From NCBI RefSeq assembly GCF_022447245.1, contig NZ_JAKVBC010000001.1, positions 1 to 64,000 of the forward strand: 64,000 bases of DNA. Reading direction: 5' to 3'. Shown one piece after another: positions 57,392-63,684 of the stretch. The notes under the pieces are model-generated. The model saw only the letters and a program-made list of their open reading frames with translations, searched no databases and was not told the origin of the DNA. The DNA comes from Kordia sp. Lineage in GTDB: Bacteria; Bacteroidota; Bacteroidia; Flavobacteriales; Flavobacteriaceae. Both the position numbers and the translations under genes were made by a program. Each line of letters opens with the position of its first letter. Position 1 is the stretch's first letter.

Positions 57392-59782
57392 CTAGAACTT
57401 CAATGTCATTCCAACTAAAAAGTTTCTAGTGGCTTGTGGATAGAATCCTGCGCCTTCGATGGTTGTTGTTGTACCAGGATTTGTCCATGTATCATCGAAT
57501 GTAAAGAAGTATCCGTTAGATACATATTCTACACCAAAAACATTGTTGATTAATCCTGTAAACGCTATAGATTCAAAGATAGAATTCACTTTGATTTCGT
57601 AATTCAAATTCAAATCATTGATAAAGTAGCTATCTAATTTTGACACATCTGAGTCAATATTCCCCATGTATTGCTCGCCTACATACTTAGACAATAATGA
57701 TACTTGGAAACTACGAGATGGTGCATACGACATAATATTTCCTGCGATGAAGTTAGGAGAAAAAGAAATATTTGTATTTCCTAAATCCACTAAACTTCCA
57801 TCTTTTGATGTAATGAAATCTACATTTTTATTAGTACTGATTGCCACATTCGGACGTACTATAAATTGGTCACTTAACTTTACAGTTGCGTCAATTTCCA
57901 ATCCTAAACGGTAGCTTTTTCCACTGTTTGTACGCAATGGCGTTCCTGTATCATCCAATGCACCAGTTAATACCAATTGATCGTTGTATAACATATAATA
58001 TGCATTTGTATTTACAGTGAAGTTTTCTCCATTCCAACGCCAACCTAATTCAAAGTCATCTAATTGCTCAGACTTTACATTGTTGTTATTTTCAAAGTCG
58101 CTTCTATTTGGCTCTCTGTTTGCTCTTGCATACGAGAAATACAAACTATTATTATCGTTTACTCGATAGTTAATACCTGCTTTTGGATTAAAGAATGTAA
58201 AATCTTCATTAATATTAAAAGGATCTAAATCAGAGTTGATTCCATTCGTTTTATAACTTACCGTACGTAACTGTAGATCTCCAAAAAGACTTACTTTTTC
58301 GTTCAAACGAATTGTTGCTTTGGTAAAGAAGCTTAATTCATTTTTCTTTCCTGTTCCATCATAATAACGATCTCTAATTTCGCTGTCACTTGCAAAACGT
58401 GCCCAGATTACTTCTCCGAAATGATCTCCTTCGTAGATTCCTAAAAAGGCTCCGAAGTCCATATCCAAGTTATTTTTTCTATAGTTTGCATTCGCATTGA
58501 TTACATAGAAATCATTGTCTAACCAACGTCTGCGAATTAAGTCTGTTTCGTTGATCGTAGTTCCATCAATTACTATTTCTTCAAAACCGTATTCATCAAA
58601 AGGTTCATCTTCTTTGTATTGCTCAAAGAAACCTCTTCCTTGTGTATAGTTTAAACCAAGATTTGTTGTCCAGCTATCAGAAATCTTCTCATTCCAGTGA
58701 AATTGGTAGTGATCTTGACGATAATTATCTACTTCATTATCATGGAAACGTACATTTCCGTTTTCATCTGTAAATTGTCCTGAAGGATTGAAGGTACGAT
58801 TGGTTTCTAATGTTTGTCGGTCAATTCCATTCCATGCTTGGTATGTAATTTCGTGTCCTCCAAATGCCAACGCTTTAATCAAAGTAGTTTCTGTTACATA
58901 CGAACCTTGTAAAAAGTACGCGCTTAAATTAGAAGATGCACGATCGATATATCCATCAGATTTAATTTTTGACAAACGTCCTGCCAACTCAAAATTATTA
59001 GCTAGTTTTCCAGTACTAAATTTTACCGTATGTTTTCTGGTGTTGAAGCTACCAAATGAATTTGAGATTTCTCCGTTTGCTTCCTCTGAAACTGCATCTG
59101 TTAATAAACTTAAACTTGCTCCAAAAGCACCAGAACCGTTCGTAGAAGTTCCTACTCCACGTTGCAACTGAATACTTTCTGTTGAAGAAGCCAAATCAGG
59201 CATGTTTACCCAAAAAGTTCCTTGACTTTCAGCATCGTTGTACGGAATTCCGTTAATCGTTACATTGACACGTGTTGCATCGCTACCACGCACACGAATT
59301 CCTGTGTATCCAACACCTGCTCCAGCATCTGAAGTTGTAACTACAGATGGCATGAAGTTCATTAAAATTGGTACGTCTTGCCCCAAATTACGTTCTGCAA
59401 TTTCTTCTTTTTCTATGTTGGAATACGTAATTGGTGAATCGGCATTTACACGAACCGCTGAAATTAATACAGCATCAAGTGCTTCTTGCGAACTAGATAA
59501 GGTAAAGTTTAGCGTAGTGTTTCCTGTAACCGCCACTTTTTTCGTGACAGATCTCATTCCCACAAAAGAGCAAACAATTTCAACATCTCCTTGAGAAATG
59601 CTCAAAGCATATTTCCCATCAGCATCGGTAGTTGTTCCAATAGAAGCTCCTTTTAAGACTACAGTTGCTCCTAATAATGGTGTTCCTTTTTCATCAGAAA
59701 CAGTTCCTGATAAAGTAACGTTTTGCGCTTGCATGCTGACTGAAAGCACGAAAAGGCATAAAAAAGCGAATAAATTCTTCAT
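57392..59782 (-). CDS. TonB-dependent receptor, TPP-riboswitch controlled (probable thiamine uptake)
   Basis: 796 residues: signal peptide (about 1-19), carboxypeptidase-regulatory-like domain (about 22-105), plug (about 125-230, IRVRGSDATRVNVTINGIP) and a barrel ending NFLVGMTLKF. The TPP riboswitch 140-230 bp upstream shows that its expression depends on thiamine status; by analogy with the Bacteroides OMthi receptor it most likely imports thiamine or a thiamine-related compound. Candidate inner-membrane and kinase partners (PnuC-like, NadR-like) and a thiamine-binding protein lie 3-4 kb upstream on the same strand. Confidence 0.85.
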   Translation of the reverse strand: MKNLFAFLCLFVLSVSMQAQNVTLSGTVSDEKGTPLLGATVVLKGASIGTTTDADGKYALSISQGDVEIVCSFVGMRSVTKKVAVTGNTTLNFTLSSSQEALDAVLISAVRVNADSPITYSNIEKEEIAERNLGQDVPILMNFMPSVVTTSDAGAGVGYTGIRVRGSDATRVNVTINGIPYNDAESQGTFWVNMPDLASSTESIQLQRGVGTSTNGSGAFGASLSLLTDAVSEEANGEISNSFGSFNTRKHTVKFSTGKLANNFELAGRLSKIKSDGYIDRASSNLSAYFLQGSYVTETTLIKALAFGGHEITYQAWNGIDRQTLETNRTFNPSGQFTDENGNVRFHDNEVDNYRQDHYQFHWNEKISDSWTTNLGLNYTQGRGFFEQYKEDEPFDEYGFEEIVIDGTTINETDLIRRRWLDNDFYVINANANYRKNNLDMDFGAFLGIYEGDHFGEVIWARFASDSEIRDRYYDGTGKKNELSFFTKATIRLNEKVSLFGDLQLRTVSYKTNGINSDLDPFNINEDFTFFNPKAGINYRVNDNNSLYFSYARANREPNRSDFENNNNVKSEQLDDFELGWRWNGENFTVNTNAYYMLYNDQLVLTGALDDTGTPLRTNSGKSYRLGLEIDATVKLSDQFIVRPNVAISTNKNVDFITSKDGSLVDLGNTNISFSPNFIAGNIMSYAPSRSFQVSLLSKYVGEQYMGNIDSDVSKLDSYFINDLNLNYEIKVNSIFESIAFTGLINNVFGVEYVSNGYFFTFDDTWTNPGTTTTIEGAGFYPQATRNFLVGMTLKF

Positions 59783-59809
59783 ATTCGTAATACAAATTTG
59801 TTACGAATA
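59782..59809 (-). promoter_or_regulatory. 9-bp hairpin abutting the receptor start codon
   Basis: TATTCGTAA and TTACGAATA arms, read on the minus strand as TATTCGTAACAAATTTGTAT and the paired TTACGAATA, end one base into the ATG. It could block ribosome access and act as the expression platform for the riboswitch. Confidence 0.45.
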
Positions 59810-59921
59810 AAAGGGGTAATTATTCTTTGTTAAAAATTAAATATATGATTTTGCTTTGGACTACGAAGTCCTCCCGCTAGCTGGCACTTTCGCTAAAAAT
59901 GTCCACTGGATATTTTTTCGA

Positions 59922-60012
59922 CGCGCAGTCCTCCCTTGGCAGCATTACCTGCCCAGGTTCATTGGGTATAATCTCAGCGTTTTAAACATTGTTCAAGTTG
60001 CACCCCTTTGAG
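59922..60012 (-). promoter_or_regulatory. TPP (thiamine pyrophosphate) riboswitch
   Basis: The minus strand contains, in order, AAAGGGGTGCA, CGCTGAGATTATACCC, AATGAACCTGGGCAGGT, AATGCTGCCAAGGGAGG, matching the conserved THI-box blocks (GGGGTGC, GCTGAGA, ACCC, GAACCTG, TAATGC.GC, GGGA). TPP binding should lower expression of the receptor at 57392. The leader also repeats GGGAGGACT at 59867-59875, exactly 60 bp from the aptamer copy (59927-59935), which may pair alternatively. Confidence 0.93.
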
Positions 60013-60184
60013 ATAGCGCAAAAATACGCCAGTTTTTTTAATTGCCCAGTGTTTTTTTTAACAAATATCATGCAAGTTGACCTTTCAGACTTCTCCTATT
60101 TGTCAGTAAGAAAAATTAACTTTTTAAATGTGAAAATAAACTGAAAATCAGTAACTTTAATTATTAACCAAAAACTTTATAATC

Positions 60185-60406
60185 ATGAAAAAACAAAATT
60201 TTCAAAAGAAGCTAAACTTAAAGAGTAGAAAAATTTCCAATTTAACTACGAAACGTGAAATTATTGGAGGAAGAACACTTACGTGTAATCCTTGTATTAT
60301 TTCTGATGTGGAAACATGTACTTCAATAAAACAGACACAAGCAATACGTTGTGGACATACGATTGGAAATGGTCAAAATCCAGATGGAACTCCGTGTACA
60401 CATTAA
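60185..60406 (+). CDS. GG-leader peptide precursor 1, 73 aa
   Basis: A 29-residue Lys/Ser-rich leader ending IIGG is followed by a 44-residue core with cysteines at core positions 5, 8, 16, 27 and 42 and many Thr/Ser. The last part is RCGHTIGNGQNPDGTPCT, almost identical to that of the next gene. Leader plus double-glycine site is the pattern of Bacteroidetes natural-product (lanthipeptide-like) precursors, and MKKQN starts recall Kordia. No LanB/LanC, radical-SAM or peptidase-ABC gene is in the window, so processing enzymes must be elsewhere or the peptide is used unmodified. A TAACCAAAAAC stretch starts 20 bp before the ATG. Confidence 0.75.
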   Translation: MKKQNFQKKLNLKSRKISNLTTKREIIGGRTLTCNPCIISDVETCTSIKQTQAIRCGHTIGNGQNPDGTPCTH

Positions 60407-60438
60407 TACAATAACATTGTTATTTTAAAATGCATTAC

Positions 60439-60496
60439 AAATTGCATTGATATAGGTTTTAAAAGACTCATTATCAATGCAATTTCTTTTTTTTAA
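60439..60496 (+). terminator. terminator after precursor 1
   Basis: AAATTGCATTGATA and TATCAATGCAATTT arms form a long stem followed by an eight-T run. Confidence 0.8.
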
Positions 60497-60580
60497 GAAC
60501 TATTTCTTACTTCCTTTAATTATCGAATCATGACTTGCTTCCTTTTTATAAACAGCAGAAATGTAGTTGTTTTACCATCG

Positions 60581-60592
60581 TAACATTAAAAC
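60581..60592 (+). promoter_or_regulatory. TAACATTAAAAC element, 21 bp before precursor 2
   Basis: Identical in sequence and in 21-bp distance to the ATG with the element before the broken precursor at 11302. Confidence 0.45.
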
Positions 60593-60601
60593 TTGTTAAG
60601 T

Positions 60602-60799
60602 ATGAAAAAACAAAATTTAAACAACAAATTGTCACTTAAGACTTCAAAAATCTCAAAGTTAGGAAACGCGTCAGAAGTTATTGGAGGAGCTACAACATTT
60701 TGTCCTTCTGCATTTTTATGTGAAATTACGGAGTATCATCGTTGCGGACATACGATTGGAAACGGTCAAAATCCAGATGGAACTCCGTGTACATTCTAA
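60602..60799 (+). CDS. GG-leader peptide precursor 2, 65 aa
   Basis: A 29-residue leader ending VIGG precedes a 36-residue core with cysteines at core positions 5, 11, 19 and 34. The end RCGHTIGNGQNPDGTPCT matches precursor 1 residue for residue up to the last position (F instead of H), and the coding DNA there differs by only two silent-looking bases, pointing to recent duplication or gene conversion. The N-terminal core parts (ATTFCPSAFLCEITEYH versus RTLTCNPC...) are unrelated. The ATG at 60602 is preferred over 60593. The 120 bp after it show no clear terminator. Confidence 0.75.
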   Translation: MKKQNLNNKLSLKTSKISKLGNASEVIGGATTFCPSAFLCEITEYHRCGHTIGNGQNPDGTPCTF

Positions 60800-60923
60800 T
60801 TTTAGAACTTAGAGAAAGTACTGCTGGGAATGATTGATTCATGACAATCAACGATTGTCTCGGCATGCTTTACTGGGAACTGTAAGATTGAAAGATTCAA
60901 TAATACAAGAATTAAAAATTGTT

Positions 60924-62471
60924 TTAGCTTACTTGATGTGTTGGTTTTAGCAAGTCATTGATAGTTTTTACAGGATTGAATGTCACTAAAGGAACCTCCA
61001 CAAAAATAGTATTCCAAAAGGCCATTCCGCCATTCCATAAACCTGGCAACTCTAAGGCTTTTATTTTTTTACCGCTTTTTGATTTGGAAGCGATAAAATA
61101 TGATTTGCGATCTACAAATTTTGTAAGATCGTATTTATTTCCTAGATAATCTTTTACACCACAAACAATATCTACCGGATTAAAATGTGTAGCTAACTTT
61201 TGAATGCTTTGGTGATACTCATTCTTTTTGTCTATTTGTACAGACTCTACAATTTGTAAAGAAATGGAACCATTTTCGTGCTTTACCCAAAACGGTCCAC
61301 CGCCAGGTTCACCTTCATTTTTTACCATACCACAGACACGAATAGGTCTATTTAATTTATCAATGAGGTATTCTATTTGATACTTTTGTGAATATTTTTC
61401 AAATTCTTCACTGATTTGAATATTGAGTTCTTTGTATAGAAATTTTAAAATTGTATGCAATTCTTCACTTGAAACTCCATTGTGCAGCATTTCCATGAAT
61501 TTGAATGCTTTTTGCTGAACAGAAATAAGTTTCCCTGCAAGGATTTTTTTGTAACGCGATATTTCTTCCGAATAGGTTTTTACAACAACATTGTCTATGT
61601 TTTTGATAAAGATTAAGTCTGCATCCATTGCATTCAAATTCTCAATCAAAGCGCCATGTCCGCCAGGTCGAAATACTAGATTTCCTTCCTCATCTAGAAT
61701 TGGTCTATTTTTCGGATCAACTGCAATTGTATCTGTTTCTTCTAATTGATATGAGTATGAAATCTCAAAATCGCAACCCGTTTTCTCTTTAATGCTTGGA
61801 AGAATTTTAGCTTCTATTGCTTTAAATTTATCATAATGTTGTTTAGAAATCGTAAAATGTAATTTTGCTTTTCCTCCTCTACAAGCATAGCTTGCTGCTT
61901 CATATAAGTGTTCTCGAAACGGTGTAGAAAGGTTATTTTTATATTTATGAAAAGGCAACAAGCCTTTTGGATAGTTTCCGTAGTTTAAACCTGTTTCTGC
62001 TAATAGTGTGTGTACAAAATCACGGTCAAATTCGTCTGGTTTTTTGATGCGATCTATCTCTGTCTTATTCATGAGTTTTATTACATCTTTATAAAAAGGG
62101 AACTTTTCCAATCCAATGAAAAACAAGCGAATTTCTGGTTCTTTTTCTTTGTTTATGTACGAGTTAATTGAATCCTTTTTGGGATTGTAATTCTGTAAAA
62201 ATTTATACAAGAATTTAAACATTCGTGTGGCAGCTCCAGAAGCAGGTGTGAACTTGATAATTTCTAAGGTTTGATACTCGTCTTTGTAAGCTTGAATATA
62301 CGCTTCTTCTGTTTCTTCGGTAAGTTTTAAAATACCTCGATGTATACTTGCATGTTCAGTAATATCTGCATACGGTATTTTTTTTTCAAATTTATCGAGT
62401 TGCTCTTCAACTTCAAGCAACGTCAATCCTTTTGCTTCTATTTGCGCTGTATGTTTTTTTGAAAAATTCAA
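60924..62471 (-). CDS. DUF4301 protein, 515 aa
   Basis: A soluble 515-residue protein with the DUF4301 pattern common in Bacteroidetes (TPASGAATRMFKFLYKFL near residue 78; FRPGGHGALIENLNAMDADLIFIKNIDNV near 266, shown here in part). The GGHGALI and ATRMF strings resemble nucleotidyltransferase or sugar-nucleotide-binding loops, so an unknown nucleotide-handling enzyme is possible. Its ATG overlaps the NadR-like kinase stop by 4 bp. Confidence 0.8.
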   Translation of the reverse strand: MNFSKKHTAQIEAKGLTLLEVEEQLDKFEKKIPYADITEHASIHRGILKLTEETEEAYIQAYKDEYQTLEIIKFTPASGAATRMFKFLYKFLQNYNPKKDSINSYINKEKEPEIRLFFIGLEKFPFYKDVIKLMNKTEIDRIKKPDEFDRDFVHTLLAETGLNYGNYPKGLLPFHKYKNNLSTPFREHLYEAASYACRGGKAKLHFTISKQHYDKFKAIEAKILPSIKEKTGCDFEISYSYQLEETDTIAVDPKNRPILDEEGNLVFRPGGHGALIENLNAMDADLIFIKNIDNVVVKTYSEEISRYKKILAGKLISVQQKAFKFMEMLHNGVSSEELHTILKFLYKELNIQISEEFEKYSQKYQIEYLIDKLNRPIRVCGMVKNEGEPGGGPFWVKHENGSISLQIVESVQIDKKNEYHQSIQKLATHFNPVDIVCGVKDYLGNKYDLTKFVDRKSYFIASKSKSGKKIKALELPGLWNGGMAFWNTIFVEVPLVTFNPVKTINDLLKPTHQVS

Positions 62472-63025
62472 TGTCTTCTTAGCAGTTTGTCTATTGTTGC
62501 AACGGCGGTTTGAAAACGCAGTTCTATAGCACCTTTTAACAATAGATGCGGTTGGTTATAGGTTTGTAAGGTTTGCTGAAATTCTAAAAAAGCCTCTTCT
62601 CTTTTATGAGGCAAATCGCGAATTCCATCGTTTTTCCAAGGCGTATCAATATAAGTCAAAAAATAGAAAGTAGCAGTACTTTTTTCTACATATTTTTCCA
62701 GTGTTTTGCTTTTAAATTCAGGGTAATAAATTCGTGCATACGTAAGTGTTTCTAAAATATCTGTATCACAAATGAACATTGTGTTTTCTTCTGCTTGACA
62801 CTCTAAACGCAATTGTCCTTTGGCAATCGGAATTACATCATCGGATGTTAGTATTTCTCCTTTTCGCTGCTTTTCTTCAGCATACATACGCGCATATTCA
62901 GGAACATAAGCTGCATTGTAATGTGCTGCTAGTTGCTTAGCAAGTGTTGTTTTCCCTGTTGATTCAGGACCAAATACTACGATTTTAAAGCGACTTCTGC
63001 CTTGTTGTTCAATGTTTTTCTCCAT
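62468..63025 (-). CDS. NadR-type AAA/kinase-domain ATPase
   Basis: 185 residues. A P-loop GPESTGKTT (about 19-27) and PEYARMYAEE match the ribosylnicotinamide-kinase domain of NadR; the adenylyltransferase half of NadR is absent. Its gene overlaps pnuC-like by 49 bp and DUF4301 by 4 bp, so it is translated together with the transporter. It would phosphorylate the imported vitamin, either nicotinamide riboside or, given the thiamine context, possibly thiamine. Domain call is good; substrate is inferred. Confidence 0.82.
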   Translation of the reverse strand: MEKNIEQQGRSRFKIVVFGPESTGKTTLAKQLAAHYNAAYVPEYARMYAEEKQRKGEILTSDDVIPIAKGQLRLECQAEENTMFICDTDILETLTYARIYYPEFKSKTLEKYVEKSTATFYFLTYIDTPWKNDGIRDLPHKREEAFLEFQQTLQTYNQPHLLLKGAIELRFQTAVATIDKLLRRH

Positions 63026-63684
63026 GCAATGTATCCAAAGATGGCTAAAATTAAGAAAATTGTGAATTGAATTGCTGTGAAACCAAGTCCTTTAACAAAG
63101 TATAACGGTACAGAAATGATATTTCCAAAAATCCAAAACATCCAGTTTTCAATCTTTTTGTTTGCCATGAGCCACATTCCCGAAAAGAAAATCCCTGTAG
63201 TAAATATGTCTAAATATGGTGTAATGGTTTTAATTTCTTCAATGGAACCGAAGCTAGAGAAAAATAAATCGATCGTTTCTGCTACATTTAAGTGAACATC
63301 TATTTTTTCTACTTGGATATACACAACATAGGTAAAAGCTGCGGTGAATAGAAAAATCCCGAGTGTTATGAGTTTTTGTGAAAAATTGGTTCGAGAAATT
63401 TCAAGTTGCACCTCATCTCTAATTCGTGTCCACATATACCAACCATAGATACTCATAATAGAGTAATACACGTTGATAATCATATCTCCATATAAAATAA
63501 AATTATAGCAGATATAGATATAAATCAGTGTACTGATAATTCCTGTGGGATATACCCAAATTTTCTCTTGTTTGGCAAACCAGACACTGGCAATTCCAAA
63601 ACCTGCAGCAAGAATTTCTAAAACTACATCTACCCAAAAGGCACCTTGATACGGCTCCAATAAAAAATCAAAAAACTGGCTCAT
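62977..63684 (-). CDS. PnuC-family vitamin transporter (nicotinamide riboside or thiamine)
   Basis: 235 residues with about seven membrane segments and the PnuC pattern WVYPTGIISTLIYIYICYN and YGWYMW, followed by a conserved W near 165. The family includes PnuC (nicotinamide riboside), RibM (riboflavin) and PnuT (thiamine). It is bracketed by a thiamine-binding MTH1187-family gene upstream (17-bp overlap) and a NadR-type kinase downstream. In other Bacteroidetes the TPP-riboswitch receptor is paired with PnuT, so thiamine is the leading substrate; nicotinamide riboside remains possible because of the kinase. Confidence 0.83.
   Translation of the reverse strand: MSQFFDFLLEPYQGAFWVDVVLEILAAGFGIASVWFAKQEKIWVYPTGIISTLIYIYICYNFILYGDMIINVYYSIMSIYGWYMWTRIRDEVQLEISRTNFSQKLITLGIFLFTAAFTYVVYIQVEKIDVHLNVAETIDLFFSSFGSIEEIKTITPYLDIFTTGIFFSGMWLMANKKIENWMFWIFGNIISVPLYFVKGLGFTAIQFTIFLILAIFGYIAWRKTLNNKAEVALKS

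Follow-up and report, generated by a model that had tools for sequence, protein, structure and literature searches.

Tandem GG-leader peptides with a common cysteine tail in Kordia: candidate orphan class I lanthipeptide-type precursors with a distant LanB/LanC/C39 gene set

Two short genes that stand in tandem in a Kordia genome encode peptides with different front cores and the same C-terminal tail, and they raise the questions of which enzymes would act on such peptides and how the tail came to be shared. We analyzed them in a window of 64,000 nucleotides (C1:1-64000 of this genome, here called G000) and in comparison with related genomes. With moderate confidence, we favor the reading that the two genes, A and B, are orphan class I lanthipeptide-type precursors, that they would be served by a distant LanB/LanC/C39 set, and that their tails have been exchanged by gene conversion. 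How they would be expressed, modified, closed into rings and exported, and what they would do, we deduce from sequence comparison.

Gene A occupies 60185-60406 on the forward strand (73 amino acids, five cysteines, stop codon counted in the coordinates) and consists of a leader (60185-60271; 29 residues with GG at the end), a front core (60272-60346) and the 18-residue tail RCGHTIGNGQNPDGTPCT (60347-60400), which together with one further residue forms the C-terminal end of both A and B. Gene B, on the same strand at 60602-60799 (65 amino acids, four cysteines, stop codon counted in), has the same three parts: a leader (60602-60688) that is likewise 29 residues long and ends in GG, a front core (60689-60739) and a tail (60740-60793) identical in all 18 residues to that of A. 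The list of open reading frames starts B at a TTG codon (60593); the ATG codon at 60602 yields a leader that matches that of A. Both leaders are basic. The sequence-only reading had described two intact tandem frames with 29-residue GG leaders, five versus four cysteines, and a common tail with about two DNA differences, and all of this was borne out, the tails of A and B in G000 differing at exactly 2 of 54 nucleotides, both silent.

Of 11 Kordia genomes (G000 counted in), 10 have an A-type gene at this site and 5 have a B-type gene. In the ten genomes, the pair, or A alone, is flanked by a TonB-receptor gene on one side and by DUF4301, AAA_28 and PnuC-type transporter genes on the other, all of them read from the opposite strand, and the order of neighbors around A is the same; in G302, a B-like gene precedes A. 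In the eleventh, G301, these neighbors are present with no peptide match between them. A contig pattern search named Kordia algicida OT-1, which carries the A gene, K. aestuariivivens and two uncultured Kordia as relatives of the locus. In the window, the neighbors recognized with Pfam are all on the reverse strand: a TonB-dependent receptor (57392-59782; PF00593, PF07715), DUF4301 (60924-62471), AAA_28 (62468-63025) and an NMN/PnuC-type transporter (62977-63684). A TPP riboswitch candidate (59912-60017, reverse strand; RF00059, 34.1 bits, E 0.00095, under the gathering score of 54.3) precedes the receptor gene, to which it belongs rather than to the pair. Because of this candidate, the neighbors at 57392-63684 are probably a thiamine-uptake locus, within which the peptide genes are read in the opposite direction. 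Between the TonB receptor and A of G303 lies a stretch that resembles a leader but belongs to no intact gene (stretch L127; tblastn E 0.18), perhaps a lost second copy.

Signals around A suggest that the two genes are probably transcribed separately. On the forward strand between A and B, folding revealed a terminator-like hairpin (60439-60485) with a run of eight T (60487-60494), at which the A transcript may end (fold z -3.9, equaled by 1 of 200 shuffles), and an alignment of 10 orthologues revealed conserved blocks before A (60140-60184, forward strand), including TAACTTTA at 60152-60159 and TAACC. By its likeness to Bacteroidota promoters, the latter stretch is a candidate promoter. A consensus terminator scan found none, and missed the hairpin because its stem is A+T-rich; a sigma-70 consensus scan for promoters was uninformative (7 sites versus 4.7 expected).

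If the tail were a common repeat with no part in the maturation of peptides, we would expect to meet it elsewhere in the genomes. A genome search for the tail motif yielded 15 occurrences in the 11 Kordia genomes, every one in an A or B gene, and none for the reversed pattern; a common repeat was thus not what we saw. Nor did any genome outside Kordia carry the tail in the samples searched (299 genomes of the family, 395 of the order, and contig patterns). With B as query, the 299 family genomes gave, beyond two Kordia, 4 matches in 3 genomes, which are leader-type matches with other cores; with the 15-member alignment as query and the best 14 candidates per genome considered, the 395 order genomes gave beyond G000 a single match (G468), also leader-type with another core. 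The contig search with two short patterns reduced 149 candidate stretches to 4 relatives, all Kordia.

All 15 copies of A and B have intact reading frames, and purifying selection acts on every part of both genes, with the tail the most constrained. Among the 10 A genes, pN/pS was 0.34 for the leader, 0.27 for the front core and 0.18 for the tail; among 4 B genes (the B-like gene of G302 excluded), the values were 0.24, 0.37 and 0.13, and all of these ratios are rough because pS was 0.48-0.65. Thus, the claim that the front cores are diversified holds between the paralogues A and B and fails within each type, where the fronts are conserved among orthologues: they are two old types, not hypervariable. 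The proposal that the tail is the unit of modification or recognition fits its constraint, such a role being our interpretation. The core residues invariant in the 15 proteins include C37, T51, C56, H58, T59, G61, N62, G63, G68, P70 and C71 (A numbering), and Thr69 of the tail is not conserved among them. We predict from the sequences that T51-C56 and T59-C71 are candidate thioether ring pairs, the 11-residue gap of Thr59-Cys71 being long for a ring; a C56-C71 disulfide could be an alternative. No known structural unit emerged for the peptides: the single match to PDB profiles was to plexin, at chance level (E 0.37), and a Pfam search of A and B matched no family. A peptide elsewhere in G000 (L153 10938; also L203) has a core start, TAFCISVNFCETIDYTAC, that resembles the B front core and a C-terminal end that differs, a possible further case of module mixing.

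We considered that the tails might be alike either because they were exchanged by gene conversion, as the sequence-only reading had suggested, or through strong purifying selection or convergence alone. A tree of leader and front separates an A clade (10 genes) from a B clade (5 genes) with support of 100/100, whereas the tail data reject A as a single clade (AU p 0.0057). Joining A and B of G000 is rejected by the fronts (p 5e-5) and not by the tails (p 0.42), and for A and B of G302 the corresponding values are p 0.0496 and p 0.25. This conflict between front and tail trees indicates that gene conversion has probably carried tails from one gene to the other. The tail tree itself, built on 54 columns, is poorly resolved (only 1 of 12 inner branches is starred, and it joins B of G299 with A of G305). 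The closest of 105 tail pairs are A and B of G000 (2 differences) and A and B of G302 (4), whereas in G299, G305 and G306 the A and B tails differ by 13, 12 and 11. When A and B were re-paired between genomes, the within-genome pairing was equaled or bettered at third positions of the tail in 3 of 120 cases (itself counted), as against 110 of 120 in a leader control (first 18 codons); with all positions, the counts were 13 and 102 of 120. Against an exchange speaks that, at third positions, A of G000 is equally close to A of G299 and to B of G000 (2 differences each), so that the silent sites give a mixed picture. Amino-acid variants, for their part, cross the line between the types: A of G000 and of G305 has the CGH that is otherwise a B variant, and in G302 the B-like gene has the CTH of A.

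Selection or convergence without gene conversion is an unlikely explanation, though one to be taken seriously. It gains from the strong constraint on the tail, from the 3 of 5 genomes in which the A and B tails are no closer to each other than between genomes, and from the weak outcome of the all-position pairing. However, selection on the protein does not explain agreement at silent sites, seen both in the two silent differences of G000 and in the third-position pairing relative to its leader control, and the variants that cross between A and B also speak against it. The conversion signal is clear in 2 of the 5 genomes that hold both genes, so that the claim stands for some lineages: there, short gene conversion probably acted on the tail, atop strong selection, as far as these sequences tell. 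Among 36 same-strand pairs within 1.5 kb of each other in a set of 88 G000 peptides (described below), tail identity was highest for A and B (0.94) and reached 0.50-0.67 in 5 others; in sampled pairs from different stretches it was 0.33 at the 95th percentile and never above 0.50. Tail sharing among neighboring precursors recurs weakly, with the A/B pair the extreme. Neighbors that share C-terminal ends include L151 1577/2001, L154 14643/14886 and L141 2531/2069.

The leaders place A and B among the other GG-leader peptides of the genome. A profile made from 81 other G000 peptides, with A and B excluded, scored A at 27.1 and B at 20.2 bits and ranked them first and second of the 549 ATG starts in the window, with the third at 6.0 bits; the likeness of their leaders is therefore beyond chance. 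The NCBIfam class I lanthipeptide leader models match both weakly, under their cut-offs: for NF038153 (cut-off 22 bits), A scored 14.6 and B 9.9 bits. The precursors at the LanB locus described below fall just under the same cut-off (20.9 and 19.7 bits). A strict LxLxKx5L motif, present in 54 of 83 GG-ending leaders of G000, is missing from the leaders of A and B.

We found no LanB, LanC, C39 or radical-SAM family among 25 neighboring proteins scanned with Pfam (reaching some 17 kb leftward and 18 kb rightward from the pair), 4 of which were without any match, the scan covering listed and larger open reading frames. The earlier statement that no machinery genes lie within 3.9 kb on either side is right as to these families, although the right edge of the window is only 3.2 kb away, and general peptidases lie farther right: one M3 about 8.8 kb off and two M16 about 15-18 kb off, with nothing that ties either to the pair. 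The further suggestion that A and B are orphan substrates of a distant machine, together with the genome search for LanB, LanC and C39-ABC genes that it called for, led to a single locus on the same contig, at which LanC, LanB and a C39 ABC exporter are found together 167-178 kb from A and B; the nearest matches of LanB and LanC are 167-170 kb away, so that neither adjoins the pair. LanB, LanC and C39 family matches are each present in 11 of 11 Kordia genomes, with one match to PF04738 (the N-part of LanB) in each, that of G000 at C1:228978-230948. The order at the locus is LanC, then LanB, then a separate elimination-type protein (PF14028, TIGR03891), and the same 20 kb hold a sigma factor, a TPR/HTH protein, HlyD and the C39 ABC exporter. 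The LanC has WCYG and CHG motifs, which we take to carry the zinc ligands. Of the small open reading frames there, two encode leader peptides that match our profile and a third does not. Elsewhere in G000, a second, stand-alone LanC match lies at C14:14292-15368, and the C39 family has 6 matches in the whole genome. On another contig (L131 4325-6499, G000:C5), a LanC-like stretch with a stop is followed by an open reading frame that looks nucleotidyltransferase-like by eye and then by a short GG peptide.

Far more peptides of this kind exist in G000 than the pair. With the best 150 of 193 candidates scored, NF038153 matched in at least 117 places at E up to 10, 20 of them above the cut-off. 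The stretches around these matches yielded 103 open reading frames with the leader pattern; 15 of these were dropped for want of a G[GAS] site or a cysteine, leaving 88 that have both, a lower bound in which 5 do not end in GG. They are dispersed over 54 loci on 29 contigs (L132-L196), and for 1 of the 88 a LanB, LanC or C39 match is no more than 10 kb away; the pattern missed two open reading frames of the LanB locus (L117:12171, 12596), with which 3 of 90 are near an enzyme match. Thus, G000 combines a single LanB with many dispersed precursors with like leaders. In one tandem array (L161, G000:C16:59775-65804), at least seven short peptides with GG leaders follow one another, each with 1-3 Cys.

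The cores of this set have Ser or Thr on the N-terminal side of Cys, as do A and B at T51/C56 and T59/C71. Of the 476 cysteines in the 88 cores, 424 have Ser/Thr 2-6 residues before them, compared to 331 (sd 9) when the cores were shuffled with Cys fixed; among other residue classes before Cys, the highest z was 2.7 (Ile/Leu/Val/Met). The pattern is not purely directional, since Ser/Thr after Cys is also enriched (350 versus 291 shuffled). Among the 15 members of the A/B family, 58 of 61 cysteines have Ser/Thr before them, against 42.8 expected, these being related sequences.

Among 299 Flavobacteriaceae genomes, 24 had a PF04738 match and 15 an NF038153 match (E up to 0.002, the best 25 candidates per genome scored), and the two go together: leaders occurred in 13 of the 24 genomes with LanB and in 2 of the 275 without it (Fisher p 1.3e-14). 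These counts take in related genomes, and the leader model itself presumably derives from LanB-linked peptides; counted by genus, the figures are 11 of 22 with LanB versus 2 of 214 without (p 2e-11). LanB is the sole enzyme family so tested. The two leader genomes without LanB are G204, with a match under the cut-off in a 305-residue frame, and G190, with one above it. In G288, leaders lie on five contigs and there is one LanB. In a genome of another genus (G195:C19 76419-84349), nine of ten leader matches crowd into 8 kb, in contrast to the scatter seen in Kordia.

Against a class I reading of A and B stand the scores of both leaders under the NF038153 cut-off, the missing strict motif and the lack of an enzyme gene nearby, and these same leader scores would fit peptides that a C39 exporter cuts and exports unmodified or disulfide-bonded (e.g., Cys56-Cys71), with LanB and LanC serving only the precursors of their own locus. 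Exporters would be at hand, given the six C39 matches, and conserved cysteines that flank a stretch rich in Gly, Asn and Pro fit a disulfide loop. We nevertheless consider an exporter-only fate distinctly unlikely, because leaders of this type track LanB over the 299 genomes, because Ser/Thr before Cys exceeds shuffled expectation in the whole set as well as in the 15 family members, and because the leaders at the LanB locus match the same profile as A and B.

If another RiPP enzyme modified the set, for instance a radical-SAM protein or a second LanC-type protein, the stand-alone LanC match on C14 would be a candidate, and rSAM-type and LanC/nucleotidyltransferase loci are described for Kordia in the parts of a survey available to us (PMC11118758). 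The 25 neighbors gave no radical-SAM match and the co-occurrence of leaders with LanB is strong, albeit with no second enzyme family in that comparison, and we regard this alternative as improbable. Decay or lack of expression of the pair seems to us very improbable indeed: B is missing from 6 of 11 Kordia genomes and A from 1, and in G303 the stretch ahead of A that resembles a leader may be a broken one, but every one of the 15 copies is intact in frame, and pN/pS lies between 0.13 and 0.37 in all parts tested.

In the class I reading that we favor, A and B would be tandem, separately transcribed genes whose products are class I lanthipeptide-type precursors of secreted peptides, two among some ninety dispersed substrates of one enzyme set. 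The split LanB and the LanC, 167 kb away, would recognize the common leader, dehydrate Thr and Ser of the core and close thioether rings onto downstream Cys, and the C39 ABC exporter would cleave after GG and export the core. The tail would be a conserved functional module, with candidate rings Thr51-Cys56 and Thr59-Cys71, joined to two front cores that may have diverged before the species split, and short gene conversions would at times copy it between A and B.

How does this compare to known systems? The precursors of pinensins presumably differ in sequence from A and B. The split LanB of Kordia nonetheless resembles that of the pinensin system of Bacteroidetes, in which the glutamylation and elimination parts are likewise on separate proteins, according to the portion of PMC7268733 that we consulted. 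As described there, Bacteroidetes have class I leaders that end in GG and go with C39 proteases, in a survey limited to within seven genes of a LanC. A and B share with such Bacteroidota precursors (NF038153; PMC7268733, in part) a basic leader with spaced Leu/Ile and a GG end, Ser/Thr before Cys, and a LanB/LanC and C39 exporter in the genome; they differ in falling under the NF038153 cut-off, in lacking the strict LxLxKx5L, and in lying 167 kb from the enzymes.

The many-substrate arrangement recalls the prochlorosins and SyncA peptides of picocyanobacteria, in which one class II synthetase (ProcM or SyncM) acts on many precursors, as the excerpts at hand describe (PMC7268733, PMC10783134, PMC9872173); promiscuous lanthipeptide enzymes, ProcM among them, are also treated in PMC12328550, seen in part. 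In both cases, many precursors have similar leaders and dissimilar cores, and most lie far from the enzyme gene. The picocyanobacterial precursors, by these accounts, have Nif11-type leaders and a single LanM, whereas in Kordia the leader is short and ends in GG, no Pfam family matches A or B, the enzymes are a split LanB plus LanC, and one enzyme for all is putative. That Kordia holds a class I counterpart of the prochlorosins, in which a split LanB and LanC act in trans on some ninety precursors and a ring-bearing tail is passed on by conversion in a modular evolution, is a tentative proposal that we hold with some doubt.

The richness of Kordia in RiPPs is already published: PMC11118758, to the extent consulted, names Kordia as RiPP-rich, describes a Bacteroidota genome with up to 176 RiPP precursors and reports a LanC with a nucleotidyltransferase near Kordia precursors, and many clusters are known from Kordia, including a lanthipeptide cluster in K. 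antarctica (PMC10734526, PMC7477175, both in part). In the sections of these three papers that we saw, we found no mention of the pair, of its common tail, of an exchange of tails, or of scattered leaders that go with one LanB. A literature search over titles and abstract openings, with few subscription journals, found nothing on the pair, on tail exchange or on one LanB with dispersed substrates, and a search of similar journal coverage for gene conversion in lanthipeptide precursors also found none; this is weak evidence of absence from print.

With 1 of 88 peptides so near an enzyme match (10 kb or less from LanB, LanC or C39), mining led by enzyme clusters would overlook nearly all such peptides. 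If one LanB/LanC set indeed serves all of them, Kordia would have class I enzymes of very broad substrate use, which would be useful for libraries of ring-bearing peptides, and it would provide a second case of one enzyme with many substrates, in another phylum and another enzyme class. The common tail of A and B is a concrete test case for the swapping of ring modules in peptide evolution.
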